From a virus: a DNA stretch of 64,000 bases. Below the pieces are notes generated by a model, which worked only from the letters and a program-made list of their open reading frames with translations, did not search any database and was not told the DNA's origin. Location of the stretch: positions 1 to 64,000 of IMG/VR virus record IMGVR_UViG_3300009132_000005; one strand, written 5' to 3'. Numbering within the stretch: the first letter of the stretch is position 1; every line of letters starts with the position of its first letter. Positions 15,701 to 60,907 of this stretch are shown here, piece after piece. The translations under genes and the position numbers were made by a program.

Positions 15701-18175
15701 ATTAGTGTTTTTACCTTCACTTTCAAGGTTTTTTCTAGCTTGTTTTAATATTCTATCATGTCTATCAGGATCAACACCTTTTAGTAAAGTAAATCTATTA
15801 CCATATTTATCAGGGCTTTTAAACTCATCTAATATACCTTCTAGTCTTTTATATTTTAAAGACAAAGCATTTATCATTGTCTCTTTTTTCTTTTCACTTA
15901 TATCTGTTCTAGCTTGTATAGCCAAAGCTTCAGCTCTAAGATCATATTGAGCGCCAACAATAGACTTGAAATCTTCATAAACATTGTAACCCATTTTAGC
16001 ACTCCATGTTTCATTAAAACCATCTATTTGTTTTACTGTATCATCTTGTAGCTCTTTTAATTCTTTTCTTATTTCTACAGCTCTTTTTGTTCTACCTAAC
16101 TTATTATCTTTTAACTGCTGATATTCTTGTTTTAGCTCACGCATTGTTTGAGCATTATTTAATATACCTTCAACAACCTCTTTATTAGCCATAGATCTAG
16201 CTGCAGCACCTGTAACAACACCACCAGCACCCATAACACCACCAAAAAATCCACCAGCAAAAGCAGCGTGATCTACATTTTCCAATATAGGTCTACCAGT
16301 AAAAATATTCTGAAAAATACTAGTTAAACCCTCTGTTGTTGATTCAAGTCCAGCACCAATGGCAAACTCTTTAAAAGCGTTCTTCTTAAAATATTGTTTA
16401 CCACTTAACATGGTTAAATCATCACTTTGATTTTTTAATAAAGTTTTAAAACCACCACTCAAAGCTGTTTTACCTATAATAAACGTAGGTGCAACACCTA
16501 AAGCACCTTCAGCTAAACCAAAACCAGTTCCAACAAGCATTTTATGTAAATCCGATGTGTTTTTATCGTTGTAATCAAGGTCATCTAATCTAGTTAAATA
16601 TTCTTGATATGTCATATCACCTATTTGTTGACCCGCTGATTGAACACCTATAACACTACCAGCAGCTGCTGCTGATAAATATGTTCCAGCACCAAGAACA
16701 CTAGCCGCACCACCAGTTGCTATCATACCAGCAAATATAGGTAACTGCCTACCACTTTCTTCAAATAAAAATCTTCCAAAGTTATTCAAACTATCAAAAG
16801 CATCATCAAAATCTACATCTTTTCTAAATTTTTTTCTTTCAGCATCCATACGTTTTCTTCTTTCTTGACCATAGTCTTCGAAAAAAGTAAATTCATTTCC
16901 TTCTTTTGGATTATAAACAAGAGTAGATCCTCCACCCGGTAATGAAACACCTTCAAGATCTCTAAGTATATTCACACCAGCTTCTAAATATTCCATACCA
17001 CCTGTTAATAAACCACCACCTACGTCTAGTATTTGAAAACCTAACTTATCTGCCATGCTAAAGTTTAATTTACTTATAGCTAGCTCTTCTTGTGCGTCTC
17101 TACCTATTTCAGATCTTTTTAATAATTCTTCGTATTGGTTTAATAAATCATCTTTAAGTACATTATAATTATGTATTGATGATTGCAGGTCATCATATTG
17201 TTCTTTTGATATAAATCTACCATCTAATAATTGTAATTTTTCTGACCCTTCAGGTATATTAAATTTATAATCTGGGTTTTTAATATTTTCTTCAAACTCT
17301 GCAATTTTAACCGCATCTTCTCCGTTAGATATACCAGTAGCTTTTATTTGTAACTTGTCATACTCTGTTTTTATAGTTTTTGCGTCGTTACTTTTTAATC
17401 TAACATCTTCATTATATATATTTATAGCTTTTCTTTCACCATCAGAAAAACCAGCCCAAGCACGATCAATTTCGCTGTCTATAGCTTTTTGTCTATCTAA
17501 AATGTTTTTTTGGAATTTAAAATAGTCTTGGACAAGATCTATTGGGGGAACTTCGCCTTCCCATGTTCGGAATTGTTCAGGTAGTGTTGATAAATTTGTT
17601 TTACCGTTTTCTTCTTCAGAGTTCTTTTTTCTTTCTGTAAATTCTGCTGTTATAGCATCTAACTCTTCTTTGTATGGATATACTGTGTTTTTTTCCCTAG
17701 TACCAAAATAATCATAAGAACCATAATTAGAGCCTGTTTTTGGCGATGATGATATTTCATAAGGTTCAAAACTTAAATTTTCGTTAGCAATTTTAGCTTC
17801 TTCTATTTTTCTTTTTAACTGAGGATTTATATCTGGGTTATTTATTTCACCATAAGATAAGTAACCAATTACACCATCATCATACTCAACTGGCACGTTT
17901 CTTATATCATAAGTATCTTCGTACTGCTCTTCTTCTGTATACCCAATTGTTACCTGAGTACCACCTTTTGTTATTCTTGTTTTTGGTTTACTAGGTTTTG
18001 TATATACTGTTCTTTTTCTATCAGGATTTATATTTCTACCCGGCTCTAGGTCTCTTTCTATCTCTCCAGTTTCAAACGCAGAAAATGGATCATCATTTAC
18101 AATTTCTGTATTTACTGTAAAAGCTGCAAAAGGATCATTAGTCTCGCTGCCATCAAGCGTACTATTGTTCATCAT
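9716..18175 (-). CDS. Giant 2819-residue multi-domain (polyvalent) virion protein
   Basis: The N-terminal third (about 460-660) has long Ala/Gly-rich hydrophobic stretches (FAGMIATGGAASVLGAG and others) of the kind that insert in membranes. At about 930-940, KTHETSHLILW gives an HExxH zinc-metallopeptidase motif. At about 1945-2110 lies a HAD-type phosphatase domain (GISVFDFDDTLA, then IFVLTARPQEA and NDFYFADD). The C-terminal part has further hydrophobic helices (about 2575-2615). DPF[AS]AF peptides occur twice near the N-terminus and once at the very C-terminus (DPFAAFDN). Its place at the end of the virion operon matches ejected internal proteins of podoviruses. I infer it is packaged and delivered with the DNA. 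Confidence 0.7.
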   Translation of the reverse strand: MMNNSTLDGSETNDPFAAFTVNTEIVNDDPFSAFETGEIERDLEPGRNINPDRKRTVYTKPSKPKTRITKGGTQVTIGYTEEEQYEDTYDIRNVPVEYDDGVIGYLSYGEINNPDINPQLKRKIEEAKIANENLSFEPYEISSSPKTGSNYGSYDYFGTREKNTVYPYKEELDAITAEFTERKKNSEEENGKTNLSTLPEQFRTWEGEVPPIDLVQDYFKFQKNILDRQKAIDSEIDRAWAGFSDGERKAINIYNEDVRLKSNDAKTIKTEYDKLQIKATGISNGEDAVKIAEFEENIKNPDYKFNIPEGSEKLQLLDGRFISKEQYDDLQSSIHNYNVLKDDLLNQYEELLKRSEIGRDAQEELAISKLNFSMADKLGFQILDVGGGLLTGGMEYLEAGVNILRDLEGVSLPGGGSTLVYNPKEGNEFTFFEDYGQERRKRMDAERKKFRKDVDFDDAFDSLNNFGRFLFEESGRQLPIFAGMIATGGAASVLGAGTYLSAAAAGSVIGVQSAGQQIGDMTYQEYLTRLDDLDYNDKNTSDLHKMLVGTGFGLAEGALGVAPTFIIGKTALSGGFKTLLKNQSDDLTMLSGKQYFKKNAFKEFAIGAGLESTTEGLTSIFQNIFTGRPILENVDHAAFAGGFFGGVMGAGGVVTGAAARSMANKEVVEGILNNAQTMRELKQEYQQLKDNKLGRTKRAVEIRKELKELQDDTVKQIDGFNETWSAKMGYNVYEDFKSIVGAQYDLRAEALAIQARTDISEKKKETMINALSLKYKRLEGILDEFKSPDKYGNRFTLLKGVDPDRHDRILKQARKNLESEGKNTNESAINKEAELIYNTEQVAANKAAINKILTDKEMSLNYTSDIFPTEADAVNRANEELAKENLSKSERKYWESIKNAKKGTRNGIAARVNGEYRFATIEENEIKNSRTQTKTHETSHLILWDKVLKLFGDGRTKEGKAKKAAVEAAIANDIVEYLLKNQPRVYNDMFGFDLSQRVQVGEKGFIPAEIIAGFIERASQMDLSRPQDKQFMGAFGRWISGFTGIDRDTMSKPNDVIDFLITLGQKLDNGTLKKTDLDKKRIEEVFDKYKNTPVDDGLSIDEKADSMTDDKTLFEQTEDIINAVDWNKLSKDEKKDVGEMIGLYWENFIRKKFKQTMSVNTDDYEIDNLTSEFVLGEKSRSRGLAEIISRWNPNVGTNINQWIQSSIQGQGQVDLRILDFVKKSPTYGRFVDSIDEIKSSGQPFEISTTDSSLDINKTTQDFNEFRKLLNIEFGGQLYDKTLKVNTEMFLNLKDTKGKFKGKTVKELLDLNPRRARTIIQDYAAKNLRADITNIIGAQKSKKFKDFIRNEETLQSLINLIAVKHRSSFPFLSEVIGTMNVDVSKANQQSDQGQFVSDEKAGNKIYKPKDMSKMKPDEKAEFIDFVEKAFVDGLKIRGRGDKQGYVDKDGNLTGVVEYDGRETTHKALKDALANELILDATFTAMENSDSMQAMYDGVTGKLAENIKRDPELAFSVSEAGGLQKLTKLAKIVMKGDYDSVFDSKGVLNEKYNKEFTPEMAKIVQDIYESGLIQDQKVYKFLQAIQKNPAIPQEVKDQVKNALTSKSDYDLRKVFADDMEILANEFGAEILEVIGFDALGFINRVLDPAKTKQDKEATLSLKQTVAEDLNVTLEELGKMKEGKGLTVYQDGVTGDFYQRLQDIKSKLNNTKAQFPEGFDISKVRPMNIKIAGSLFFRIDKILQSDTTASEKIEQLLDEKLQTEIKEANAQNKILFKYLIKKLLKSGISDVSMINMLQLQTNAAEGFRALTGLKYITITDGPLGKMKGEHLADNSSTMVDIVELKYKNLKGEALDEAIDDILEYHDQWIGNRSQLDFVDVFGKNNPNKDLRIRLYPNPSQVFTFDMKPAETLIKQREDDIKLKVEQKKTKNARNTLEMANSLSGKRKGISVFDFDDTLAKSNSKVGVTMPDGSKRRINATEFALESADLEAAGAKFDFSEFNKVIDGKKGPLADLALKRQGKFGSGDIFVLTARPQEAAYAIHAFLKGIGLNIPIENITGLEDGRPQAKADWIINKVGEGYNDFYFADDAIKNIKAVKDALKDVDVKGRVELAFSESINYEDKINEIIAHQSGVSKDARFSRVVAQRKGKQSKFYILPSTAQDFEGLLYYMAGKGEQGSKDLAWLQNNLFKPYMKAVDAINIAKTSIISDFKKLNKNYKAESDKLTKLMQNGNFTYDQGIRVYIYNKQGQNIPGISKRDLNSILKEINSDPRLKQYADAIQNIGSGKDGVYPAPKDGWEMNSVLADLDNLTRKVGRKRFLEDWLKVIEATFTPDVFNKLEAIYGSTYVDALKDALWRMENGTNRPSGANATTNAWLNWVNNSVGTIMFFNRRSALLQGISFINFVNWSDNNPLKAAIAYGNQPQFWQDFAMIWNSPKLKQRRRGLQTDLQWQEIANAAKNSKNRFNSAISYLLQIGFTPTQLMDNFAIAAGGAPFYRNRFNTYKKQGLTDAEAKQKAFDDFSEIAEKTQQSGDPALISQEQASPLGRLVLAFQNVTQQMVRLQNKAGTMLIRRQKYEGMTQLQSDFTNVSKIVYYGAIQNFIFTFLQNAMFGLLPGFEGDEKDDLMKQIESENAKKARQINNMIDTLLRGSGLKGAVVSTIKNAIMQYQKQDAKGFRADHTYTLIELLNISPPIGSKARKVYSAIQTRKFNRDLLEERGFEITADGRINLAPSYEIIGNLASAFLNLPLDRVVSELDGIVEATDSRNRAWQRIALALGWRTWDVGAKNEEEDLMQIFIDLDKKQKKRDEKNKKKDPFAAFDN

Positions 18176-38132: not shown

Positions 38133-38400
38133 CTTTCGGTAGAACATTTATAGATCCGTCTTCTATATTAATAGAAACATCACCGTATTTTTCTTTTAAC
38201 TTTAAGTTGTTTGATTGTAATTTATTTTGTATATCTGTTATCTGATTACAAAGAGCGTTTTTCTGATACTCTAAATTACCAACTTGCATTTGTGTTTTGT
38301 TGATTTGACCAACAAGAGCTTTTATTAATTGTAGCTCTTCATCTGTAACTTTTTCAGCAACTTTTGCTTTAGGTGCTTTTTTACTATAAGTTTTTGCCAT
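38113..38400 (-). CDS. Coiled-coil protein
   Basis: 95 residues. Basic N-terminus (AKTYSKKAPKAKVAEK), then a long helix with heptad spacing (DEELQLIKALVGQINKTQMQVGNLEYQKNALCNQITDIQNKLQ), ending INIEDGSINVLPKDEK. Coiled-coil proteins of this length precede the terminase genes in several marine phages, in my recollection. First gene after a 58-base gap that holds the sequence GTGTGACA and GTAATAATAA, a possible promoter region. Function unknown. Confidence 0.55.
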   Translation of the reverse strand: MAKTYSKKAPKAKVAEKVTDEELQLIKALVGQINKTQMQVGNLEYQKNALCNQITDIQNKLQSNNLKLKEKYGDVSINIEDGSINVLPKDEKLNS

Positions 38401-38458
38401 AATTTTATTTAATTTAAATTTGTTTCACTATTTTATTATTACTCAATTGTCACACTTT

Positions 38459-39358
38459 TTACTTCTTTTTGTCAGGTGAAGCTATATACCAGTTTTTATA
38501 CTTTTCTCTTTTAGCACAAATATACTCAATATACTTATCTACTTTTGTTTTCCAGTCCTTGTCTATAGCTGGATTTATTATACCAGACTTATAACTAGAA
38601 AATGTTTTATCAACATAATGTTTTATATTATCTTGATGATGATATAAAAAATTATTTATACAATAAAAAGATCCCATACGTATATTGTTCCAAACATCTA
38701 CAGGTTCTATTGTTTTACCTAAAACACCAGCAAATAAAGGGCTTTCGCTTATATGTGTAGAGTAAACACCTTTTGCTTTCTGCATGTAATAATACATGTC
38801 TACGTTTTTAGGTAATATATTTTCTTCACCAAAGAAATCTTTTAGTTCACCTATAATTTGATGTGTTGTTATAGGGTGTGGTTTAAAATAAACATTATTA
38901 CCATGTTTATTAACTATATGTTTTAATCTATTTAAACATACATTTTCTCTTAACTTGTTAGATCCTGGTAAAACTATTAAATAATCTTTAGCAGGGTATC
39001 TTTCTAAGTCTTCTTCTCTATCTTGATATTTATTAGCGTTGCTATCAACAACTTTTTTAACTAACCAAGATGAATAATCTAACACTTTTGTATCTTTATC
39101 ATACCAAGCATCTAGCATTTGTTCATTACGCATTTTAAAATTTAGTGGCTGTAAATAAAAATTACCTGCGTACTCGGTATATGCTAGCGTTTTAAAGTAT
39201 GGCATTTCTTCTGCCATAACATCATAACTGTGTTCTAAACCGTTTTCGCCACACTTTCTTATAACATAACCTTCAACTTGTTCTAAGTCGTATAAGCTGT
39301 TATTTTTTTTAAGAGGGCCTATTCGCTTTCTAAGCTCCTCTTTGTTAAACATTTCCAT
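38459..39358 (-). CDS. GT-B-like glycosyltransferase with KPHP motif
   Basis: 299 residues. YLIVLPGSNKLRENVCLNRL, then NNVYFKPHPITTHQI and GVYSTHISESPLFAGVLGK. The KPHP signature followed by a Ser/Thr-x-x-S/G-x-E-like loop is the C-terminal nucleotide-sugar-binding part of GT-B enzymes such as capsule transferases (KpsC/KpsS) and polysialyltransferases. The N-terminal half gives no recognisable motif. Lies directly beside the Thr-repeat fibre genes. Inferred: sugar transfer to a virion or surface polymer. Confidence 0.55.
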   Translation of the reverse strand: MEMFNKEELRKRIGPLKKNNSLYDLEQVEGYVIRKCGENGLEHSYDVMAEEMPYFKTLAYTEYAGNFYLQPLNFKMRNEQMLDAWYDKDTKVLDYSSWLVKKVVDSNANKYQDREEDLERYPAKDYLIVLPGSNKLRENVCLNRLKHIVNKHGNNVYFKPHPITTHQIIGELKDFFGEENILPKNVDMYYYMQKAKGVYSTHISESPLFAGVLGKTIEPVDVWNNIRMGSFYCINNFLYHHQDNIKHYVDKTFSSYKSGIINPAIDKDWKTKVDKYIEYICAKREKYKNWYIASPDKKK

Positions 39359-39417
39359 ATAATTAAATTTAATTGTTATAGTACTATAGTCACATATTAT
39401 TACACTTTTCTACCTAA

Positions 39418-41028
39418 TTACTCGTTATTGCCTTGGAAAGGATTAGTACCAAGCTGTCCAAATTGATTAAAATTCTGATAATAACCTGTATTTGTTGAGT
39501 AAACAGTTGTAAATGTAGTAGTAGTACTGTATATTGTTGTTGTACTTGTGCTAGTATTATAGTTTGTTGATATACTTGTTGGCACTGTAGTACCAAAGCT
39601 AGTAATTGTGTTAGTACTTGTGTTATAAGTAGTAGTGGTACCGGTTGTAGTATTATACGCTGTAGTTGTAGCTGTATTGTATACTGTTGTTGTACTCTTA
39701 CTAGTTAAAGTACTAGTATTAAACGTTGTTGTAGTAGATTTACTAGTGGTCTTAGATGTTGAAGTACTAGTATTGTACTGTGTTATAGTAGGTTTACTAG
39801 TTATAGTAGACGTATTAAACGTTGTTGTATAAATAGTAGTTGTATCTTTAGAAGTACCATGAGATGTATTTCTATTTGTACTATATGTTGTATTTCTTTG
39901 TGTTGTGGTACTAGTGTTATACGTAGTAGTATAAGCTGTAGTAGTATTTTTATTAGTACTATATGTTGTAGTTCTACTTTCTTGAGTTGTAGTAGAAGTG
40001 TTAAACGTTGTTGTAGTACTAGTGTTATATACAGTTATAGTTATTGTATCTGTTGTTCTACTAGTACTTCTAATAGTCTGAGCTGTACCAAAAGTTAACT
40101 TCATTGTTATTTGATACGTAGTATATACTGTGGTAGTACTAGTGTTAAATGTTGTTGTTGTGCTTGTACTAGTATTAAATGTTGTTGTCGTATTATATAC
40201 TGTTAAAGTAGACGTATTAAAAGTTGTTGTAGTGTTGTTGTTAGTACTTACTGTAGTGTTTCTTTGTTCAGTAGTATTCTTGTTAGTACTCCATGTAGTA
40301 TTAAATACTGTTGTTGTACTTGTATTAAACACGGTATTAGTAGTATACGTAGTAGTTGTAGCTGTATTATAAACAGTTGTTGTTTGTGTACTAGTGTTGT
40401 AAGTAGTAGTTGTGTTGTTATTTGTACTTACCGTTGTATTTCTTTGCTCTGTTGTATTTTTAAATGTAGCATAAGTAGTATTAAAAGTAGTTAGAGTAGA
40501 AGTGTTAAACGTCGTGGTAGTCGTATAAGTAGTTGTAGTAGCTGTATTGTATATTGTATTTGTACTAGTACTTGTGTTAAAATAAGTTGTTGTTTCATGA
40601 TTAGTACTAACTGTAGTATTTCTTTGTTCAGTAGTGTTTTTGTTTGTAGAGTAAGTTGTATTTCTACTAGTAGATCTAGAGGTATTATAAGTTGTTGTAG
40701 TTGTATAAACAGTAGTAGTTGACGTATTATACGTAGTAGTTGTAGTTTTAGTTGTATTAAATGTTGTACTAGTAGTATAAGTTGTCGTAGTGTTTCTACT
40801 TTCTGTAGTGTTTTTGCTAGTAGCAAAAGTAGTTGTAGTGTTTCTTGACTCAGTAGTATTTCTTGATTCAGTAGTATTTTTTGACGTTAAATAGTAAGTA
40901 GTCCAATAAGTAGTATATGCAGTAGTAGTACTTCTTGATTCACCAGTGTTTTTACTAGTCGATCTAGAGGTATTACGTATAGTACTCGCAGATGTCGGTC
41001 TTGTTGTGTTTCTACTTGTATTTGGCAT
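39418..41028 (-). CDS. Thr/Asn/Ser-repeat fibre protein I
   Basis: 536 residues, almost entirely built from short units such as YNTSTTT, FNTSTST, STNKNTTEQRNTT. Aromatic residues (F/Y) in the stretches I counted are separated by even numbers of residues (6, 8, 10), so they would all point to the same side of a beta strand; this suggests a long beta-structured shaft. The end (NTGYYQNFNQFGQLGTNPFQGNNE) is different and may fold as a tip. No S74 chaperone domain. A paralogous fibre lies at 41589-43667. The repeat also creates many N-T-S/T triplets, potential glycosylation sites. Confidence 0.65.
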   Translation of the reverse strand: MPNTSRNTTRPTSASTIRNTSRSTSKNTGESRSTTTAYTTYWTTYYLTSKNTTESRNTTESRNTTTTFATSKNTTESRNTTTTYTTSTTFNTTKTTTTTYNTSTTTVYTTTTTYNTSRSTSRNTTYSTNKNTTEQRNTTVSTNHETTTYFNTSTSTNTIYNTATTTTYTTTTTFNTSTLTTFNTTYATFKNTTEQRNTTVSTNNNTTTTYNTSTQTTTVYNTATTTTYTTNTVFNTSTTTVFNTTWSTNKNTTEQRNTTVSTNNNTTTTFNTSTLTVYNTTTTFNTSTSTTTTFNTSTTTVYTTYQITMKLTFGTAQTIRSTSRTTDTITITVYNTSTTTTFNTSTTTQESRTTTYSTNKNTTTAYTTTYNTSTTTQRNTTYSTNRNTSHGTSKDTTTIYTTTFNTSTITSKPTITQYNTSTSTSKTTSKSTTTTFNTSTLTSKSTTTVYNTATTTAYNTTTGTTTTYNTSTNTITSFGTTVPTSISTNYNTSTSTTTIYSTTTTFTTVYSTNTGYYQNFNQFGQLGTNPFQGNNE

Positions 41029-52186: not shown

Positions 52187-52285
52187 AGTTTATTGTTTTA
52201 CTTGTATGTTATAATAGTTACACGTAATAAAGTATATTTACAGAGTGTGACATTAGGGTATTACTAGGTATACTATTAGAGGCTA

Positions 52286-52314
52286 TTGTCATAAAAAAAC
52301 ACGTTAGATATAAT
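52286..52314 (+). promoter_or_regulatory. Sigma-70-like promoter in the control region
   Basis: TTGTCA, then exactly 17 bases, then TATAAT, directly followed by GGGG. One mismatch to the -35 and none to the -10 of classic bacterial promoters. A transcript would start near 52321 and begin with the GC-rich hairpin. A second, weaker match (GTGACA, 16 bases, TATACT) lies just upstream at about 52248-52275. Classic -35/-10 boxes are not the usual Bacteroidetes consensus, so activity is uncertain. Confidence 0.5.
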
Positions 52315-52315
52315 G

Positions 52316-52337
52316 GGGTATAGGGTTGCCCCTACCC
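52316..52337 (+). other. GC-rich hairpin at the predicted transcript start
   Basis: GGGTA-TA-GGG-TTG-CCC-C-TACCC folds as a stem with GGGTA/TACCC and GGG/CCC pairs. It lies at or just downstream of the predicted start from 52286-52314 and opens a GC-rich stretch reaching about 52400. Could be the 5' hairpin of a small RNA or a leader structure. Confidence 0.45.
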
Positions 52338-52399
52338 TACGCTCGACCTGCTGTTACAGGAAAACGCATTATTTCAACCGGGCCCCCATGTTCTATATA

Positions 52400-52423
52400 G
52401 ATTATCCACGTGTATTCGTGTTT
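52400..52423 (-). promoter_or_regulatory. 24-bp early element, minus-strand copy
   Basis: On the minus strand: AAACACGA-8-GGATAATC, one base off consensus in each half and with the exact 8-base spacer of the plus-strand copies. It points left toward the virion/chaperonin unit that starts at 52186. This is the only copy I found on the minus strand; its presence in the divergent region supports a promoter role. Confidence 0.6.
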
Positions 52424-52480
52424 AGCATGTGTATAGCATCACTACACTTCACTACTTATTTATTAATTCACTCACATTAT

Positions 52481-52504
52481 AAATACGACTATAAATGGAT
52501 AATA
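52481..52504 (+). promoter_or_regulatory. 24-bp early element, copy 1
   Basis: AAATACGA, 8 bases (CTATAAAT), GGATAATA: both halves match the consensus exactly. Lies upstream of the first early gene in the non-coding control region. Confidence 0.65.
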
Positions 52505-52643
52505 GATATGTATTTAATAAGTAATAATAATGACATATTTCACTCACATAATTAAACAAACTAAATTAGAAGTCGCGAGACAGTGTGGAATACTACTAAC
52601 TAATTTTATACTAATAAATAAACTATCCACTTTTACCCAATAT

Positions 52644-52667
52644 AAATACTAACTAATTTGGATAATA
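52644..52667 (+). promoter_or_regulatory. 24-bp early element, copy 2
   Basis: AAATACTA, 8 bases (ACTAATTT), GGATAATA. One base off consensus in the first half. It lies 45 bases before the ATG of the first early gene (52712), a distance that suits a promoter with a short leader. Confidence 0.65.
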
Positions 52668-52711
52668 ATAATGTAACTAAATAATAATAATAACACTTAA
52701 ATAATTTAACT

Positions 52712-52939
52712 ATGAGTAACTTAATCACAAAAAGATTTGTTGTAAGACAATCACTAATCGGAAAAAATGTAACATTCGAATTCACTAACAAAAAAGGTGA
52801 CAAGATAACTTACAATCACGACAAAGTATTTTCAATAATGAAAGATACACTAACTAAACTGCCATGCTGGCTAAAGTACAAAAGTTATACTGCTACTAAC
52901 AATATACCTTTAGTACTTAGAAATAAAGACTTAGTATAA
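52712..52939 (+). CDS. First early gene, unknown protein
   Basis: 75 residues: SNLITKRFVVRQSLIGKNVTFEFTNKKGDKITYNHDKVFSIMKDTLTKLPCWLKYKSYTATNNIPLVLRNKDLV. Mixed alpha/beta, basic. Preceded by an early element (copy 2). First genes of an early region often encode host-takeover proteins, so it may target a host factor. Not recognised. Confidence 0.55.
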   Translation: MSNLITKRFVVRQSLIGKNVTFEFTNKKGDKITYNHDKVFSIMKDTLTKLPCWLKYKSYTATNNIPLVLRNKDLV

Positions 52940-52941
52940 TT

Positions 52942-53047
52942 ACTAGTCTTTGTTTCACCTCGGCGTTAACTTGTTCTCTCGAGTATAAATACAGTTGAAC
53001 CAGACTAGTCTTGGAGCAGAGGTGTGTTTCGATTACACACACTAGTA
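52942..53047 (+). ncRNA. Possible structured RNA with T-arm-like hairpin
   Basis: Between two early genes. ACTAGT near 52942 and again at 53004 can pair with the ACTAGT at 53041, and TGTGT-TTCGATT-ACACA (53023-53039) looks like a tRNA T-arm with its 7-base loop. CACCTC (52956) can pair with GAGGTG (53019). No D-arm or anticodon arm is visible, so it is not a standard tRNA. It also contains a TATAAATAC half-site. Status uncertain. Confidence 0.3.
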
Positions 53048-53061
53048 CTAAATATATAATT

Positions 53062-53181
53062 ATGGCACACATTAATACATACAAATTAAAAGTAGCGTTC
53101 AGATTATATGGAAAACACTATAATCTTCTAACGACTGAAGAAAAAACACATGTAAACGAAGTAGTATACATGTACTATTAA
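53062..53181 (+). CDS. Small early protein, 39 residues
   Basis: Frame AHINTYKLKVAFRLYGKHYNLLTTEEKTHVNEVVYMYY, found by hand in the gap after the structured element. AT-rich leader typical of this phage. Ends 18 bases before the next start. Unknown. Confidence 0.5.
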   Translation: MAHINTYKLKVAFRLYGKHYNLLTTEEKTHVNEVVYMYY

Positions 53182-53198
53182 CAACTAAATAAATAACT

Positions 53199-53393
53199 AT
53201 GAGTAAAATTAAATTCACGTACAACAGAATGTACAACTATGTAAAAGGTAAATCAGTAGTAGAACTAATGTTTGAGTTCTTCGCTTTCGGAATATTAATG
53301 CCAATGGCAGTAAGTGGTATCAGCTTCATGATATTCATGTTAGTAACTGGTCAAGTAACAGACGTAAATATTAACTGTGGCATTTGCTACTAA
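53199..53393 (+). CDS. Small early membrane protein
   Basis: 64 residues with a hydrophobic helical stretch (VELMFEFFAFGILMPMAVSGISFMIFMLVTG, about residues 20-50), so probably one or two membrane spans. Unknown function; inner-membrane localisation is likely. Early expression suggests a host-directed role. Confidence 0.55.
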   Translation: MSKIKFTYNRMYNYVKGKSVVELMFEFFAFGILMPMAVSGISFMIFMLVTGQVTDVNINCGICY

Positions 53394-53404
53394 TACAATA
53401 AACT

Positions 53405-53542
53405 ATGCAATTTATATTAACTTGTGAAAATGGTAAGCAAATAGATATGTCAAGTGACATACTAAAGCAAATGAGTGGCGAGATAACTCGTCAAGATGTA
53501 GAACAAAGAATTGAATTCTATCAAAAAACTAATAAACTATGA
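53405..53542 (+). CDS. Small early protein, 45 residues
   Basis: QFILTCENGKQIDMSSDILKQMSGEITRQDVEQRIEFYQKTNKL: a beta start followed by helices, acidic/basic mix. Its stop overlaps the next ATG (ATGAG) at 53539. Unknown. Confidence 0.5.
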   Translation: MQFILTCENGKQIDMSSDILKQMSGEITRQDVEQRIEFYQKTNKL

Positions 53543-53667
53543 GAAAATTTAAACATGAAGAACTATGGTCGTTTAGTGACGAGCATGTCATTGACGGTAT
53601 GATTTACTGTCATGAAATTGAGAAGTGGGTAACAGTAGAAGAATATACAGAATACTACTATGCCTAG
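53539..53667 (+). CDS. Small acidic early protein, 42 residues
   Basis: RKFKHEELWSFSDEHVIDGMIYCHEIEKWVTVEEYTEYYYA: acidic and aromatic-rich. Starts within the preceding stop and its own stop overlaps the next start (ATGCC at 53660), so three tiny genes are translationally linked. Unknown. Confidence 0.5.
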   Translation: MRKFKHEELWSFSDEHVIDGMIYCHEIEKWVTVEEYTEYYYA

Positions 53668-53785
53668 AAAACACTCACATCACAAAATAATTAAATTAAC
53701 TCGTCAGCAAATAATGATGATAGAAGATCGGTGGTGGGCTAGATATAATAAACTACCCAAAATAAATACGAATAAAGTTGGATAA
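53660..53785 (+). CDS. Small basic early protein ending INTNKVG
   Basis: 41 residues: PRKHSHHKIIKLTRQQIMMIEDRWWARYNKLPKINTNKVG. His/Lys-rich N-terminus, Trp pair in the middle. Its last codons are formed by a copy of the 24-bp early element (53764-53787), and the unrelated protein at 54271-54711 ends in the same residues. Unknown function. Confidence 0.55.
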   Translation: MPRKHSHHKIIKLTRQQIMMIEDRWWARYNKLPKINTNKVG

Positions 53786-53787
53786 TA
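53764..53787 (+). promoter_or_regulatory. 24-bp early element, copy 3
   Basis: AAATACGA, 8 bases (ATAAAGTT), GGATAATA. Overlaps the end of the 53660-53785 gene and lies about 10 bases before the ATG at 53797. Confidence 0.65.
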
Positions 53788-53796
53788 ATATAAAAT

Positions 53797-53988
53797 ATGA
53801 CTATGAATAAATTAAAATTTACTAACTACGACTTAAATAACAAACCTAAAAATGTTATACTAACAAAAGCAAACGGCGAAGTTGAAGTACTTGACGCTTG
53901 GCCTCACACTATGTACTATGACAAAGCAGACAAACAGTACAGAACTTTTCCTGCTTTTACTAAAATTAACAATGAAACTTATGTATAA
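53797..53988 (+). CDS. Small early protein, 63 residues
   Basis: MNKLKFTNYDLNNKPKNVILTKANGEVEVLDAWPHTMYYDKADKQYRTFPAFTKINNETYV, beta-rich. The ATG at 53797 (MTMNK) or 53803 is possible. Directly behind copy 3 of the early element. Unknown. Confidence 0.55.
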   Translation: MTMNKLKFTNYDLNNKPKNVILTKANGEVEVLDAWPHTMYYDKADKQYRTFPAFTKINNETYV

Positions 53989-54187
53989 AGATTATCCAGC
54001 AGACAAAATAGCAGCAAAACTCAAACAAGTTGAAGAGTTTGAAGCTAAATACGGTGAATCTACACGTACTATTGCATGGAAAAAGTGGTGTAATGACATC
54101 AACTATCGCAAACGTGAGTGGCAATTCAGGCAAGGTGTTGCAGAATATGCACTAAACAATGCACATAAAGCATTTATGGCGGGATAG
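53972..54187 (+). CDS. Small helical early protein overlapping the tRNA
   Basis: 71 residues from the ATG at 53972 (MKLMYKDYPADKIAAKLKQVEEFEAKYGE), or 68 from 53981. Charged and helical, ending NAHKAFMAG. Overlaps 53797-53988 by 17 bases (the upstream frame from 53882 would overlap far more). Its last bases run into the acceptor stem of tRNA-Met; the stop TAG is at tRNA positions 8-10. Unknown. Confidence 0.5.
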   Translation: MKLMYKDYPADKIAAKLKQVEEFEAKYGESTRTIAWKKWCNDINYRKREWQFRQGVAEYALNNAHKAFMAG

Positions 54188-54250
54188 AGCAGGTGGTAGC
54201 TCGCGAGCCTCATAAGCTCGAGGTCGAAGGTTCGACTCCTTCTCCCGCAA
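54178..54250 (+). tRNA. tRNA-Met (CAT), initiator-like features
   Basis: Cloverleaf read by hand: acceptor GGCGGGA/TCCCGCA, D-arm GAGC-AGGTGGTA-GCTC, anticodon arm CGAGC-CTCATAA-GCTCG with CAT, variable AGGTC, T-arm GAAGG-TTCGACT-CCTTC, A73; CCA is not encoded. Positions 1 and 72 (G-A) do not pair, and the D-stem has A11-U24, two features of initiator tRNAs. The initiator mark of three G-C pairs in the anticodon stem is missing (only CGAGC/GCTCG). Confidence 0.9.
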
Positions 54251-54270
54251 CTAATTTAAATTTAATAACT

Positions 54271-54711
54271 ATGAGTAAATATACTTGGCGACAAGAACAG
54301 CAGATGCTATGTGACTCGTTCGCAAGAGCATTATTAGTAGAGCACAATATAAAAGAAGTGACTACACAAAGACAAGCTAAAAATGGTACAAGAGAATTTG
54401 AGTTTCCAGTACCCGCTAGATCAGCTTTCTATGGTAATAAACTACATTATTCAAAAGAAAGACTAAGATTAGCAGTATACAAAACAGGTTATGTAAGAAA
54501 TTGTAACAGTTGTTCTTCAAACTATCAACTAAACAAAACATACAAAAGAGAAACAAGAACTACTTTCTTTGATACATCAAAAGGTGGTTTATACACTAGC
54601 TCTTATAGAAGTATAGCTAGACAATTAATCTACAGCGAGTTTGCTAGATTAAACTATATGCTTCAGTATTATCTAAAGAATCACAATATAAATACGAATA
54701 AAGTTGGATAA
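54271..54711 (+). CDS. Early protein of unknown function
   Basis: 146 residues from the ATG at 54271 (the longer frame from 54193 starts inside the tRNA). Contains RETRTTFFDTSKGGLYTSSYRSIARQLIYSEFARLNYMLQYY and a short NCNSC. Ends INTNKVG, encoded by early element copy 4. No recognised domain. Confidence 0.55.
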   Translation: MSKYTWRQEQQMLCDSFARALLVEHNIKEVTTQRQAKNGTREFEFPVPARSAFYGNKLHYSKERLRLAVYKTGYVRNCNSCSSNYQLNKTYKRETRTTFFDTSKGGLYTSSYRSIARQLIYSEFARLNYMLQYYLKNHNINTNKVG

Positions 54712-54713
54712 TA
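54690..54713 (+). promoter_or_regulatory. 24-bp early element, copy 4
   Basis: AAATACGA, 8 bases (ATAAAGTT), GGATAATA, identical to copy 3. Within the last codons of 54271-54711 and 7 bases before the ATG at 54720. Confidence 0.65.
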
Positions 54714-54719
54714 TATACG

Positions 54720-54932
54720 ATGACAAAATGTAAATGTAAAAATATAATACCTCCACAGCGCCTCGCACTAGGTTACACCTCTTGCGTCGACTGTAGCACA
54801 GTAAAACCATATGGCTGTATATCCCTTACATACCATAAAACCGGTAATACTATACAAATTATGCCGAAAGAACAGGCGAAACGTGTCAGAAAGCTTGGCG
54901 CTCGCAGAGGTTACGGAACATGCTTAAGATAA
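54720..54932 (+). CDS. Small zinc-finger protein, DksA/TraR-like
   Basis: 70 residues: KCKCKNIIPPQRLALGYTSCVDCSTVKPYGC. The Cys spacing and the IPxxRL...xxCxxC block resemble the C4 zinc finger of DksA/TraR regulators, which bind RNA polymerase; but the rest of the TraR fold is missing, and the C-terminus is basic (KEQAKRVRKLGARRGYG). Candidate modulator of host transcription. Immediately downstream of early element copy 4. Confidence 0.5.
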   Translation: MTKCKCKNIIPPQRLALGYTSCVDCSTVKPYGCISLTYHKTGNTIQIMPKEQAKRVRKLGARRGYGTCLR

Positions 54933-54936
54933 TAAT

Positions 54937-55134
54937 ATGGCAGTAATAAAACAAATGAATATAGTAGCAGAAGAAATAGCTACAGACGTAATAGATAATA
55001 TAAAACAACAGTGTGATTGGCAGATCGGCCAGTTTCTACCAGAATCTAGTGAGGGCAATGAAATATACGAAGCTCATAGTTACCTCGTAGAACTGGTCGT
55101 CAGTCACATATCTAAAAAAGTAAACAATGAGTGA
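54937..55134 (+). CDS. Small helical early protein
   Basis: 65 residues, helical throughout (VIKQMNIVAEEIATDVIDNIKQQCDWQIGQFL, then YEAHSYLVELVVSHISKK). Starts five bases after the previous stop and overlaps the next start by 8 bases. Unknown. Confidence 0.5.
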   Translation: MAVIKQMNIVAEEIATDVIDNIKQQCDWQIGQFLPESSEGNEIYEAHSYLVELVVSHISKKVNNE

Positions 55135-55414
55135 TTCAATTAAAGCATGGCATGAAATGCAAGAAGAAAAATTAGTTTCGCTACAAGCAGATGAAGCTAT
55201 AGCTGAAGAACTAGGAAGAGCTAAATATATATTCTTACTAGATTTTGGAAACGGTAAAGTATATAGATATGACATTAGCTCATTATGTAATGAAAAAAAT
55301 AAATGGAATCCAGACTCTGAATCTTGTGAAGCATTTTTATATGGTGCAGGTCACAAGCTTACTGACTGCGAGTGGATGGTAACAAACACTGGTGGTATAG
55401 AGTTCGGTAACTAA
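55127..55414 (+). CDS. Early protein of unknown function
   Basis: 95 residues: IKAWHEMQEEKLVSLQADEAIAEELGRAKYIFLLDFGNGKVYRYDISSLCNEKNKW, then EAFLYGAGHKLTDCEWMV. A helical start and a beta-rich second half. Starts within the previous gene (ATGAGTGA). Unknown. Confidence 0.55.
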   Translation: MSDSIKAWHEMQEEKLVSLQADEAIAEELGRAKYIFLLDFGNGKVYRYDISSLCNEKNKWNPDSESCEAFLYGAGHKLTDCEWMVTNTGGIEFGN

Positions 55415-55721
55415 ATAAATTTCGCCAAGAACATTTGTGGTGCTAAACAGCGAGGCCTGATAAATCATTGCTGCAGTGCGTACGGAAGTGTATTATGTGA
55501 GGCGGTTTAGCGGCGGCATACTGGTCACGTTAGATAAGAAAACGAAGACACTTATCAAAACAGAAAGAGTGGATAAATGACAATACTAGGTAACTACCAG
55601 TCCACAACTGCTGCTTTATGGGCGTGATATGGTAAGAGTATGATTAAAGGCGTAATTCCTTAGCGGGATGTGAGAAACGGCTCGATGATTACTAACGCAG
55701 GTTCGACTCCTGCCACGTCCA
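55415..55721 (+). ncRNA. Structured RNA with tRNA-like 3' end
   Basis: About 300 bases without a reading frame. The 3' end has a T-arm (GCAGG-TTCGACT-CCTGC, 55697-55713) followed by CACGTCC-A. This acceptor strand pairs fully with GGGCGTG at 55620, and also with GGATGTG at 55668, so the tRNA-like part may span 55620-55721 (102 bases), but there is no clear D-arm or anticodon arm. Upstream, GCGGC...GCTGC and ACTGGT...ACCAGT form a long stem, and GATAAG/CTTATC a hairpin. Possible tmRNA-like, intron-split tRNA or new RNA. Confidence 0.5.
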
Positions 55722-55732
55722 CAATACAATAT

Positions 55733-55756
55733 AAATACGACAATAGTAGGATAATA
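55733..55756 (+). promoter_or_regulatory. 24-bp early element, copy 5
   Basis: AAATACGA, 8 bases (CAATAGTA), GGATAATA. Non-coding, 21 bases before the ATG at 55777 and just behind the structured RNA. Confidence 0.65.
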
Positions 55757-55776
55757 TAATTAAATAATAAATAAAT

Positions 55777-56004
55777 ATGAAATCAATCTACGAAATGCTC
55801 AAACCCGAACTAAAGGACGAGCTTAAATCAAGTGCTAGAAAATATGACAGCGCTAAAAGACTAAAGTATGTACTTATGTCTAAAACTATATGGCAAGACC
55901 TAACAGTGTCCGAGCTATCAGAACTTATAACTTATTCTAACCTAACTAGTTACAAAATGTCACCATATGACTTTATGTACGGTGATAATTTATTAACTAA
56001 GTAA
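55777..56004 (+). CDS. Small early protein, 75 residues
   Basis: KSIYEMLKPELKDELKSSARKYDSAKRLKYVLMSKTIWQDLTVSELSELITYSNL: helical, charged. Stop overlaps the next start (TAATG). Unknown; follows an early element and so is likely expressed early. Confidence 0.55.
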   Translation: MKSIYEMLKPELKDELKSSARKYDSAKRLKYVLMSKTIWQDLTVSELSELITYSNLTSYKMSPYDFMYGDNLLTK

Positions 56005-56465
56005 TGGCAGAACTACTAACAGACGATATAATATACGAAGCTTTAGAAGCTGATGGTATTATGCAGGAACCAGATGCCAACTGGCTACTCGAATATATCG
56101 AGTCAGAATATGGCGGTAAGTTAGACAAAGACAGTAGTTGGAGTGATAACAAACATGAATTAAAAATATACAGTGAATCAACAGCTGATGGCTATGATAT
56201 ATACTGGTGTACTTATGATGAAAAACCTTATGTATCAGAAGATGGTTATCAGTATGAAGCTTATGATACTTGGTCAGAACAAGCTATTGAAGCTTTAACT
56301 GATGGTCAAAATGTATGGGTAGAGTCTCATATATGGGACGATATGGAATATGAATTCAACCATGAATTAGAACAATGGTGGACAGATATATACGAAGATG
56401 TATTCTGTGCAGATAAAAAAGATGAACTATTAGAATCAGGAGACTATTATGAAGACAAAGAATAA
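56004..56465 (+). CDS. Very acidic, Trp/Tyr-rich early protein
   Basis: 153 residues with a strong excess of Asp/Glu (ADGIMQEPDANWLLEYIESEYGG, YSESTADGYDIYWCTYDEKPY, WWTDIYEDVFCADKKDELL). Such acidity occurs in phage DNA-mimic inhibitors and in anti-restriction proteins, but also in plain structural proteins; the aromatic richness is notable. No motif allows a choice. Confidence 0.5.
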   Translation: MAELLTDDIIYEALEADGIMQEPDANWLLEYIESEYGGKLDKDSSWSDNKHELKIYSESTADGYDIYWCTYDEKPYVSEDGYQYEAYDTWSEQAIEALTDGQNVWVESHIWDDMEYEFNHELEQWWTDIYEDVFCADKKDELLESGDYYEDKE

Positions 56466-56730
56466 ACAAGAAAAACCTAAATGGTTTACAGGTGCATGGT
56501 ACGAAGAAGGTGATACTGTGCAAAATCCTTTCAGCGGTGAAGAATATACGTTGACAGGACCAGAATTAAGTATGTATGATTTTATCATGGGTGCTCAATG
56601 GACTATTGAAACAAAGTTTCAACAAGATGTTGTTGACCCTATGGTTGACAAGCTTTCAGATGACATGAGAAAAGGTTTAAACTGGTTTAGATCAGAAAAC
56701 CCTAAAGCTTATATGGTATTACTAGATTAA
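56449..56730 (+). CDS. Small phage protein, 93 residues
   Basis: KTKNKQEKPKWFTGAWYEEGDTVQNPFSGEEYTLTGPELSMYDFIMGAQWTIETKFQ then DDMRKGLNWFRSENPKAYMVLLD. The YDFIMGAQ block I recall from marine phage proteins. Overlaps the previous gene by 17 bases. Unknown function. Confidence 0.55.
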   Translation: MKTKNKQEKPKWFTGAWYEEGDTVQNPFSGEEYTLTGPELSMYDFIMGAQWTIETKFQQDVVDPMVDKLSDDMRKGLNWFRSENPKAYMVLLD

Positions 56731-56731
56731 T

Positions 56732-56863
56732 ATGGCAAAACTAACACTAAGAGCTTATATCTCTAAACATAAGAAAAAGAGACCAGGTGTTCATTCTAAA
56801 AACGCCTCGCGTGGACAAACTGGTTATAAGAAGAAATATAGAGGCCAAGGTATAAAAAGATGA
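56732..56863 (+). CDS. Small Lys/Arg-rich protein, 43 residues
   Basis: AKLTLRAYISKHKKKRPGVHSKNASRGQTGYKKKYRGQGIKR, found by hand in the gap between two genes. Strongly basic, like the other small basic proteins of this phage. The stop TGA overlaps the next ATG (ATGA at 56860). May bind nucleic acid. Confidence 0.65.
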   Translation: MAKLTLRAYISKHKKKRPGVHSKNASRGQTGYKKKYRGQGIKR

Positions 56864-57396
56864 GCACAAGAAACGTAACAATGGTCGTAGACCGAAAACA
56901 CGCAGAAGAAAACGAGCTAGGTTTCGCTGCAGATCCTTGTCATTTCAGTGACAAAAGCTACGTAAATATGTATTTACATCATGATGGTTATCCTGAATGG
57001 CAAGGTGTACAGTTAGCAAACTGGTGTCACACTAATGGTAGAATAGACGGTAGCGCTTTAGCTGCCAAGCTTGTACATGATATGTACTATGACAGTTGCT
57101 ACTTATATAAAGACCATCAGCATATAGATCACCATTATACTTATATCATATGGACAGGTAAAACTGATATATGGATTAGTTGCTGGGATCAGTATTCTAA
57201 TAGAAATGTATTCGTGTTAAAACCTGAAAAGATTATATCTAAGTATATGGAAGACATGGAGTATACTGATTTTGCTAATGGCGAAATAAGAGCTGATAGA
57301 AATACATTATCAAATAAAGTTGATCTAAGCTTAAAAGACTATAATGGTCTTAGAAGTAATGCTCAAAGAATTATTGACATACTAACCACAGATTAA
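56860..57396 (+). CDS. Early protein, 178 residues
   Basis: STRNVTMVVDRKHAEENELGFAADPCHFSDKSYVNMYLHHDGYPEWQGVQLANWCH, then YTYIIWTGKTDIWISCWD. The YVNMYLHHDGYPEWQG block resembles a family of phage proteins with a YxHxDGYP core, function unknown to me. Possible metal-binding His cluster (HHDGYP and HQHIDHH). Confidence 0.55.
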   Translation: MSTRNVTMVVDRKHAEENELGFAADPCHFSDKSYVNMYLHHDGYPEWQGVQLANWCHTNGRIDGSALAAKLVHDMYYDSCYLYKDHQHIDHHYTYIIWTGKTDIWISCWDQYSNRNVFVLKPEKIISKYMEDMEYTDFANGEIRADRNTLSNKVDLSLKDYNGLRSNAQRIIDILTTD

Positions 57397-57418
57397 ATAC
57401 GAATGGATTTGGATAATA
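57395..57418 (+). promoter_or_regulatory. 24-bp early element, copy 6
   Basis: AAATACGA, 8 bases (ATGGATTT), GGATAATA. Overlaps the start of 57403-57699: the ATG at 57403 falls in the spacer. If transcription starts near this element, translation probably begins at the in-frame ATG at 57430 instead. Confidence 0.6.
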
Positions 57419-57699
57419 TAAATGACGATATGCTAGATACATTAACTGATTTAGTTATAGAAAAACTTCTTTACAAATTTAAAAACGAAGTACATGCTAT
57501 TACACCTATGAGTGTTAAAGATATACTACAAGGTTTTGTTCCGTTCAAAGAAACAGACGAAGAGTTTCTTGTAGCTGAAATGGCAAGGCTTATGACGTTA
57601 CTACATTTATACGAAGATAAAGAAGAATATAGAAAAGCAGCAATAATAAAAAGAAAATTAGAAATAATACAAAATAAAATAAATAAACTAGATGATTAA
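57403..57699 (+). CDS. Small helical protein with UVR-like motif
   Basis: 98 residues (ATG 57403; 57430 also possible). Acidic N-terminal helices (NINDDMLDTLTDLVIEKLLYKF), then EEYRKAAIIKRKLEIIQNKINKLDD, which resembles the UVR domain helix pair of UvrB/UvrC-type proteins. The ligase gene starts in its stop. May be a DNA-repair or replication helper. Confidence 0.5.
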   Translation: MDLDNINDDMLDTLTDLVIEKLLYKFKNEVHAITPMSVKDILQGFVPFKETDEEFLVAEMARLMTLLHLYEDKEEYRKAAIIKRKLEIIQNKINKLDD

Positions 57700-58570: not shown

Positions 58571-58673
58571 ATTAATATGGCAACTATACAACGAAAACTT
58601 AATATCGGAAGAGGTAGCAAACCTCTTATTAGACAAACATTATAATAGATTAAACAACAAAAGATATAAATGA
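58563..58673 (+). CDS. Small protein after the ligase, 36 residues
   Basis: SKLIWQLYNENLISEEVANLLLDKHYNRLNNKRYK from the ATG at 58563, inside the ligase stop (GAGTAA). Helical, ends basic. The next gene overlaps its stop. Unknown. Confidence 0.5.
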   Translation: MSKLIWQLYNENLISEEVANLLLDKHYNRLNNKRYK

Positions 58674-59179
58674 ATATATTTTATTTAGATGCTGATCCAG
58701 TTAAAGCTGCAAAACTACAATACAATAAACATGTAGTTAAGATGATACTTGAATCAGCTCAAATGCTTTGTACTGCACATCATTGTTATGGTAATGCAGA
58801 ACAAAAACTAAATGTACCATACAAACAAGCTCATTTAAATCACCCATCAACCGTGTGGGCTAGAAAATCTAGAGCTACATATAGATGGTTATATTTACAT
58901 ATGATGGCATTAGGTGATGAGTACAGTAAACGATATGGAAAAAAACATTTAACAATAACTAAATGTGCTGAGTTCCTAAACGTTCCACCTGTACATATAC
59001 AAGGTGATGAGTTTACACAACCACCACAAGCTATGCCAGATGAATACAAGCGTGATTGTGCTATACACGCGTACTGGCTGTACTATGTACACGAGAAGAA
59101 AAATATAGCGCATAACAAAGAAAAATTATATGATAAAGAGTATATTAGTAAGCATTTTGGTTACAGCGACTGTATATAA
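58670..59179 (+). CDS. Conserved phage protein with KHVVKMILESAQML motif
   Basis: 169 residues: NIFYLDADPVKAAKLQYNKHVVKMILESAQMLCTAHHCYG, HLNHPSTVWARKSRATYRWLYLHMMALGDEYSKRYGKKH, PPQAMPDEYKRDCAIHAYWLYY. This is a family I recall from many cyano- and marine phages, for which I have no reliable function, although its conserved His/Arg/Asp residues suggest an enzyme, perhaps a DNA repair glycosylase. Do not over-interpret. Confidence 0.65.
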   Translation: MNIFYLDADPVKAAKLQYNKHVVKMILESAQMLCTAHHCYGNAEQKLNVPYKQAHLNHPSTVWARKSRATYRWLYLHMMALGDEYSKRYGKKHLTITKCAEFLNVPPVHIQGDEFTQPPQAMPDEYKRDCAIHAYWLYYVHEKKNIAHNKEKLYDKEYISKHFGYSDCI

Positions 59180-59514: not shown

Positions 59515-60153
59515 ATGTCACAAGACAGAAATTTAAAATGGTTAAATGATAGGCGCATCGTATACAGAAGAGATCCTGATACTGATGTACCTACCATAGA
59601 AACCGATCAATATAAATACTACTCTGATGGTACGTATCAGTGTTATCACTTGTTTAATAGCAAGGCTAAGATAACTACATACAAATCATTGAAGTGGCAC
59701 ATGCTTGTTTTATATTACCTTAATATTGATGGCATCGAAGGTGACCATTGGTCATTAGAAGATGACATGCGAGCTGTATTTAAATTTATAGCTAATAAAG
59801 AAAATGGTTTTGTAACCTTCTTCATTAAACAGAGAATATTACATGAAATGATAGAAGATGTTTTTAACCAAGGTGGTGATCCACCTAATAACAAACTACG
59901 TAAAGTAGTATTTAAACCGTACTCTGGGTTAGACTTGAGTGGAAAATTAAAAATTGTAGGTCAGTTGATAGGTAGATCTTCAAACGTAGACGAAGAAGCT
60001 GTTTACCAATGCATGTTAGATTTAAACCATTATAATAAGAAAATAACATGGGGTAGAGTAGCAGGTTTACTTGATTGTTCTACAAGAACTATTTACAGAA
60101 ATTTAACAAAACAATTAAAGAAAGAAAAACAAATATTAAATGAAGAGTTATAA
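59515..60153 (+). CDS. Helix-turn-helix protein upstream of the sigma factor
   Basis: 212 residues. The C-terminus has KKITWGRVAGLLDCSTRTIYRNLTKQLKKEK, a helix-turn-helix of the AraC/HTH type (G-x-L-x-x-S-x-R-T-x-x-R). The N-terminal part (RRDPDTDVPTIETDQYKYYSDGTYQCY, DDMRAVFKFIANKENGFVTFFIKQR) has no recognised fold. Its stop lies inside the sigma factor start, so the two may act together in gene control. Confidence 0.6.
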   Translation: MSQDRNLKWLNDRRIVYRRDPDTDVPTIETDQYKYYSDGTYQCYHLFNSKAKITTYKSLKWHMLVLYYLNIDGIEGDHWSLEDDMRAVFKFIANKENGFVTFFIKQRILHEMIEDVFNQGGDPPNNKLRKVVFKPYSGLDLSGKLKIVGQLIGRSSNVDEEAVYQCMLDLNHYNKKITWGRVAGLLDCSTRTIYRNLTKQLKKEKQILNEEL

Positions 60154-60907
60154 CGTATCTAACTATATCAGATGGAAAAAAGATATAGAAATAAAAATAC
60201 ATAATTTACCTGAAGTTATAAACGGTGATTTTACTATATATAACAGAGAGCAGATGATAATTTGTTTTACACCTTTAGTAGAAAATCTATCAAGAAAGTT
60301 TTCCACTACACAACAAGCATCAGGTGTTATGGATATTATGGATTTAATACAAGAGGGTAATTCAGGTTTAATAAAAGCTGTTGACAGGTTAGATTATACA
60401 ACACTTAAAGATTCTGAAGATCAAGAAAAAACATTAAAGTCGTTTTTATCTAAAAGAATAAAAGGACATATACGTAGAGCAGTAGATATTAATCGTGGAG
60501 ACATGAGAATACCTGAACACAAGCTAAATGAAATACGTAGAAATTTTGGTAAAGATAAAAAAATGGTATCAATGTTTTTTAATTCTATATTTTTAAGTAT
60601 AGATGATAAACCAAATCAAGATGATGATTCTGTTTATCAAATACCAGATAAATCAGAACCATACAATATGAACTTACTTAACGTTTATTTAAAAGGTTTA
60701 ATGAAAAAGTTTTTAAATTTTAAAGAGTATGAAGTACTTAGGTTAAGTTATGGTTTAGACTGTGATAAGCACTCAGCTAAACAAATTGCAGCTGAGTTAA
60801 ATATTGAAGGCTCAAGCTCTTATGTTAGAGTTTCGCAGCTTAAAAAACAAGCAGTAAATAAACTAATAGATAATTGTGATCACTCGCAAGTGCTTGATTA
60901 TCTTTAG
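60140..60907 (+). CDS. RNA polymerase sigma factor (sigma-70 family)
   Basis: 255 residues. Region 2: LVENLSRKFS...DIMDLIQEGNSGLIKAVDRLDY then FLSKRIKGHIRRAVDINRGDMRIPEHK. Region 4: LNFKEYEVLRLSYGLDCDKHSAKQIAAELNIEGSSSYVRVSQLKKQAVNKL. There is no region 1.1, and the middle has a variable linker with IDDKPNQDDDSVYQIPDKS (region 3 replacement). It probably redirects host RNA polymerase to late phage promoters. Confidence 0.9.
   Translation: MKSYNVSNYIRWKKDIEIKIHNLPEVINGDFTIYNREQMIICFTPLVENLSRKFSTTQQASGVMDIMDLIQEGNSGLIKAVDRLDYTTLKDSEDQEKTLKSFLSKRIKGHIRRAVDINRGDMRIPEHKLNEIRRNFGKDKKMVSMFFNSIFLSIDDKPNQDDDSVYQIPDKSEPYNMNLLNVYLKGLMKKFLNFKEYEVLRLSYGLDCDKHSAKQIAAELNIEGSSSYVRVSQLKKQAVNKLIDNCDHSQVLDYL

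Follow-up and report, generated by a model that had tools for sequence, protein, structure and literature searches.

Phage sigma factors such as SPO1 gp28 and T4 gp55 redirect the host RNA polymerase to middle and late promoters. The closest described layout to the one reported here is that of phiEco32 and phage 7-11, where sigma-dependent promoters lie upstream of the phage sigma gene in a feedback arrangement (PMC4331800). Here we analyse an element, AAATACGA-N8-GGATAATA, found seven times in a stretch of 64,000 nucleotides (nt) of phage DNA (the window: positions 1-64,000 of IMGVR_UViG_3300009132_000005, an IMG/VR record of 67,529 base pairs (bp) in all). Sequence comparisons indicate that the seven copies are almost certainly the phage clade's own promoters, and they are probably read by the phage's own sigma factor through the host core RNA polymerase. 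As in phiEco32 and 7-11, a phage-specific motif recurs before genes of the phage and ahead of its sigma gene, and the host core polymerase would be retargeted. However, the phiEco32 and 7-11 motifs are short and of -10 type (TAATGTATA and TGTGATGTTATA), whereas the present phage has a full -35, spacer and -10; their hosts are Enterobacteria, whereas the likely hosts here are Bacteroidota, and the sigma belongs to a separate, divergent family. The promoters of SPO1 gp28 and T4 gp55 also have other letters than the present motif. Phage-specific promoters tied to a phage sigma were already known; here they come with an unusual spacer element, a predicted output that is often leaderless and lineage-specific -35 boxes.

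A sequence-only reading of the window had placed the element at seven positions, and it is present at all of them. Five copies match exactly (52481, 53764, 54690, 55733 and 57395), the copy at 52644 has one mismatch (AAATACTA) and the minus-strand copy at 52400-52423 has two (AAACACGA...GGATAATC). Allowing up to three mismatches gave nine matches, compared with 1.42 +/- 1.16 in 100 dinucleotide shuffles, so the motif is not as frequent in shuffled sequence; the two extra matches, at 18192 and 34275 on the minus strand, are chance-like. A matrix of 42 columns, built from 312 sites in relatives with the window and its nearest kin left out, scored the seven sites at 42.9, 41.0, 39.6, 35.8, 33.9, 30.5 and 20.0 bits. 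The next-best position in the whole 67,529-bp genome scored -1.2 bits, and the best among 60 shuffled genomes 12.3 bits. Because no other position in the genome scores near them, the set of seven, all at 20 bits or above, is complete.

The two halves first noticed are real, but the conserved unit is longer, extending from about -37 to +1 with an upstream TACA and a downstream purine start. Numbering the first A of AAATACGA as position 1, the layout across 756 unique sites from relatives is TACAAAnTA, AATACGA, N9, GATAAT, N6 and a purine. Among 136 unique sites, conservation beyond the part used for selection covers TACA at -7 to -4 (80-99%), T at 0 and a pyrimidine-purine pair at 29/30. Position 30 is A in 55%, G in 43%, C in 0% and T in 2% of the 756 sites, and is still 97% purine, after T or C at 29, in sites without an ATG at 28 or 30. 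If GATAAT (18-23) is taken as the -10, position 30 becomes +1, 7 nt after the hexamer, and the pyrimidine/purine step would be the initiator. A -35 hexamer at motif positions -5 to 0, a 17-bp spacer and a 6-bp discriminator would then give ordinary sigma-70 geometry. The sequence-only reading had judged the halves too close to be -35 and -10 boxes. They are indeed not that pair, but GATAAT is the -10, the -35 (TACAAA/CACAAT) lies upstream across the 17-bp spacer, and AATACGA is an extra element inside that spacer, at about -28 to -22.

The clade consensus of the -35 is TACAAAnT, and in this phage it is mostly CACAATAT. In diverged relatives the -10 and the spacing stay constant while the -35 becomes CACGGACTT (L255, L256), CCCTAACTA (L254) or TCGAANCTT (L257), as expected of a promoter. 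AATACGA decays or disappears in some of these relatives (L255, L036) with GATAATA kept; since it is lost where the -10 and spacing persist, it is not part of the promoter core. The base before GATAATA depends on lineage, being G in some lineages only and A, C or T in others. Two resemblances proposed earlier proved accidental, as neither is conserved. In T4 late promoters TATAAATA serves as the -10 element, but the TAAATA of the present phage lies at about -30 and the preceding TA is not conserved (T at -2 in 33% and A at -1 in 37% of the 136 unique sites). Promoters of the primary Bacteroidota sigma, sigma-ABfr, carry TAnnTTTG at -7 and TTTG at -33 (PMC7366714); the host group is likely the same and so is the overall -35/-10 geometry, but the present motif matches neither box.

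The predicted +1 is a sharp boundary for start codons, as judged from the sequence. An ATG at position 30 opens an open reading frame (ORF) of at least 35 codons in 128 of 132 sites, and an ATG at position 28, two bases upstream of +1, does so in only 13 of 215. The median distance from position 30 to the first ORF is 14.5 nt, against 70 nt for random places, and in 52 of 136 sites (about 38%) it is 0-9 nt; leaders of the six plus-strand window copies measure 20, 39, 4, 1, 15 and 6 nt. Because the first ORFs lie so close to position 30, many mRNAs of the clade should be leaderless or nearly so. In Bacteroides thetaiotaomicron, by contrast, leaders shorter than 10 nt make up about 3.7% (PMC7366714). 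We also considered AUG-UAA start-stop mini-ORFs in the leader, as the ATG at 28 is followed by TAA in 142 of 215 cases, and rejected them. A TAA is likewise found after G30 in 41% of the sites that lack this ATG, and so mainly reflects the initial transcribed sequence.

Among relatives, nearly all loci whose sequence includes the stretch upstream of sigma contain the motif. Nearly all full-length records have 5-22 sites per genome, compared with about 0 for a reversed-pattern control; the sites share the strand of the sigma gene almost without exception, and most are upstream of sigma. All 31 motif-bearing genomes tested carry the phage sigma, while five structural relatives without it lack the motif (0/5), having only 0-1 chance-level sites (one chance match with three mismatches). 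Hosts essentially lack it too: a scan of 84,980 prokaryote genomes yielded no more than 36 matching stretches, and wherever a stretch has several matches it carries phage genes of this clade. Of the loci checked in metagenome-assembled genomes (MAGs), L187/L189, L195 and L196 carry early genes of this phage clade and are all binned with Bacteroidota, which points to Bacteroidota hosts. The MAGs of L187 and L196 gave no sigma match; phage contigs there are at most 20 kb long. The earlier suggestion of a phage-specific promoter is thus borne out by the conserved geometry, the initiator, the start-codon boundary, the conservation across the clade and the absence from hosts and from relatives without sigma.

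The proposed reader is a sigma factor of 255 amino acids (60140..60907, plus strand; phrog_351, 2e-19) with regions 2, 3 and 4, which align with those of SigA/RpoD in matches to PDB sigma profiles. It scores 50.2 bits against the sigma-70 superfamily model TIGR02937 (cut-off 42.9). Its AlphaFold model has a mean pLDDT (predicted local distance difference test) of 76 and its top Foldseek matches are all sigma subunits, with low TM (template modelling) scores that probably come from flexibly placed domains. Relatives in IMG/VR number 34 loci by sequence and 315 by profile, and tblastn found no match in 50,697 GenBank phage records; this is a separate, divergent family of sigma-70 type. By our own count, the invariant R112 lies opposite E. 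coli T440 in the profile alignment; T440 is known to read -12, and at this position the promoter carries G rather than T. The correspondence is suggestive only.

The sigma gene is overlapped by one for a helix-turn-helix (HTH) protein of 212 amino acids (59515..60153, plus strand), a candidate second DNA reader. Wherever an HTH homologue was sought, it stood immediately before sigma; the two genes form a conserved overlapping pair across the clade, and the HTH protein is 45-87% identical to the window's in the 40 aligned.

We propose that host core RNA polymerase with the sigma from 60140 would read these sites in vivo, so that the rightward genes are expressed as a series of short, overlapping and often leaderless transcripts. 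As sigma is encoded at the end of the region driven by these promoters, the circuit would feed back positively on sigma's own operon. A first supply of sigma would be needed before the promoters could fire, through read-through from a host-type promoter or from another source. As the sigma must be made first, delayed-early or middle timing fits better than the 'early' of the sequence-only reading.

Several observations weigh against this picture of a phage sigma reading the whole element. We know of no standard sigma region that contacts DNA where AATACGA lies. Sigma helix 4.2 is almost invariant while the -35 differs between lineages, so that the helix was rejected as an explanation of the -35 letters and a second reader of the -35 is possible. 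A distance-based coevolution test (20 genomes, with a ligase/Erf control) detected no significant additional correlation between the motif and either sigma or the HTH protein. Sigma and motif co-occur through shared descent in one clade, which is one event rather than independent ones. A search of the rightward region for a host-type promoter that could provide the first sigma gave nothing convincing, and most relatives have no conserved motif copy for the leftward structural unit, so that the motif does not account for the promoters of that unit. A promoter of three elements with two phage readers is a tentative alternative, in which GATAAT is read by the sigma and TACAAAnTAAATACGA, in and upstream of the spacer, by the HTH protein encoded next to it or by some other phage factor. 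The upstream part (TACAAACTA, CACGGACTT, CCCTAACTA, TCGAANCTT) would then be free to drift without any change in sigma or the -10, and many of the mRNAs made would be leaderless. Slightly less likely still, the sites may be true early promoters at which the host polymerase and host sigma use GATAATA, a phage DNA-binding protein, injected or made early, binds TACAAAnTAAATACGA, and the phage sigma serves other genes such as the structural unit. The sites do lie upstream of sigma in the apparently first-expressed region, the HTH gene precedes sigma, the structural unit is without the motif, and the -35 and spacer parts drift together where helix 4.2 does not. However, the host -7 box TAnnTTTG is not matched (GATAATAt), the motif is absent from host genomes and no injected activator is known here.

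The other alternatives are far less probable than reading by the phage sigma. An operator, a replication iteron or a conserved mRNA leader element could account for many dispersed copies of one motif, with the -35 and spacer parts as a potential repressor site. Such an element is very improbable given the single orientation matching the genes, the +1 initiator, the start-codon step at position 30 and the sigma-70 spacing. A T7-type promoter for a single-subunit phage RNA polymerase is suggested by striking letters: AATACGA matches T7 -16 to -10, G18 would be +1 at exact T7 spacing, and TAATACGACT...G agrees in letters and spacing. The other T7 elements are missing, including TATA at -4 to -1, and a promoter of this type has no place for the TACA at -25 or for a conserved purine at motif position 30. 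Diverged relatives lose AATACGA entirely but keep GATAATA. No RNA polymerase gene was seen among the larger ORFs scanned in the 67.5-kb genome; a PF00940 search was empty, but its control was silent too. We therefore rejected this least credible of the alternatives.

Copy 1 (52473..52510, plus; 33.9 bits) combines the -35-like CACATTATA, the spacer AATACGA, the -10 GATAAT at 52498-52503 and a predicted +1 at G52510. Its 20-nt leader runs to a conserved ORF of 40 amino acids (52530..52652, plus; MTYFTHIIKQTKLEVARQCGILLTN...), whose stop codon overlaps copy 2. That copy (52636..52673, plus; 30.5 bits), with AAATACTA, has its -10 at 52661-52666, a predicted +1 at G52673 and a 39-nt leader to the ORF at 52712. 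Copy 3 (53756..53793, plus; 35.8 bits), with its -10 at 53781-53786 and predicted +1 at A53793, serves the ORF at 53797 after 4 nt. Copy 4 (54682..54719, plus; 42.9 bits) overlaps the end of the preceding ORF; from its -10 at 54707-54712 the predicted +1 is G54719, leaving the ORF at 54720 nearly leaderless (1 nt). Copy 5 (55725..55762, plus; 41.0 bits; -10 at 55750-55755, predicted +1 at A55762) has a 15-nt leader to the ORF at 55777. Copy 6 (57387..57424, plus; 39.6 bits; -10 at 57412-57417, predicted +1 at G57424) overlaps the stop of ORF 56860-57396 and is the last promoter before the operon whose final genes are those for the HTH protein and sigma. Within this copy, at 57395, the ATG at 57403 is probably not the gene start it had been taken for: the start-site boundary moves the start to 57430, with a 6-nt leader.

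Two RNAs lie among these copies. A tRNA-Met (CAT anticodon; 54178-54251, plus) in the rightward small-gene region overlaps the beginning of a called ORF (54193), whose true start is probably further downstream, near 54270. Ending just before copy 5 is a small RNA with a tRNA domain like that of transfer-messenger RNA (tmRNA) and no evident message part (window 55620-55724, plus; L011 5467-5576; L026 5345-5421), found at about 19 clade loci and in 22 IMG/VR stretches. It scores 32.4 bits (E 2e-10) against the Rfam tmRNA model, under the curated cut-off, and has an acceptor GGGCGUG/CACGUCC with a G3-U70 pair (alanine identity) and a T-arm CGCAGG-UUCGANU-CCUGC, while its centre varies greatly in length and sequence among phages. 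It is possibly a shrunken tmRNA or an alanine-accepting decoy.

The divergent minus copy (52394..52431, minus; predicted +1 at 52394) is weaker, at 20.0 bits, and faces the leftward structural unit. Comparable copies are present in 12 of 39 relatives and 0 of 389 control segments, and with only those 12 genomes having one, we rejected it as a general structural-gene promoter. Behind it, at 52300-52394 (minus), several relatives share conserved GC-rich GGGGCCCGG and a GGGGCAACCC hairpin with a GNRA loop, a possible small RNA; RNAalifold found no common fold, the alignment being poor. The divergent region also holds, at about 52250-52292, a conserved dyad TGTGACAnTAGC ... GGCTAnTGTCA followed by a T run on the minus strand, which resembles an operator or a terminator. 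The spacers that precede two leftward genes, at 38400-38459 and 39358-39418 (minus), contain GTGTGACA or GTGTAATAATA-like words (GTGTGACAattgagTAATAATA), a possible structural-gene promoter element.

Both ends of the record fall within ribonucleotide reductase genes, as in a circularly permuted genome. The portal, terminase, muzzle (crAss_MUZ_C) and GroEL genes place the phage near flavobacterial podoviruses, with terminase identities of 62% to MW202828, 45% to Flavobacterium elemo phages and 38-39% to Cellulophaga phi38:1 and phi13:2. The leftward unit (5.2-52.2 kb) holds structural and lysis genes. The rightward unit, from 52.5 kb around the permuted end, encodes small genes, DNA ligase, the HTH protein, the sigma factor, Erf, exonuclease, primase-helicase, thymidylate synthase, MazG and ribonucleotide reductase. 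A protein of 2819 amino acids in the structural region (9716-18175, minus) has a HAD-like DFDDTLAKS motif and a zincin-like HETSHLILWD, with only a weak match to phrog_415 (polynucleotide kinase) and no RNA polymerase signature. A small protein at 58670-59179 (plus) has a near-threshold match to pyrimidine dimer DNA glycosylase (Pyr_excise).

Our literature search found no usable flavophage transcript map with promoters. The analysis gives a base-resolution promoter map for marine phages of Bacteroidota; this phylum's promoters are unusual, and models of transcription in its phages are few. Besides naming a likely reader and predicting where transcription starts, the map corrects the starts of genes and predicts that leaderless mRNAs are widespread in these phages. 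The signal is common to hundreds of related phages in a large uncultured marine clade, with at least 315 related sigma loci in IMG/VR. The variant -35 boxes of its sister lineages are a natural experiment on the evolution of a promoter and its reader.

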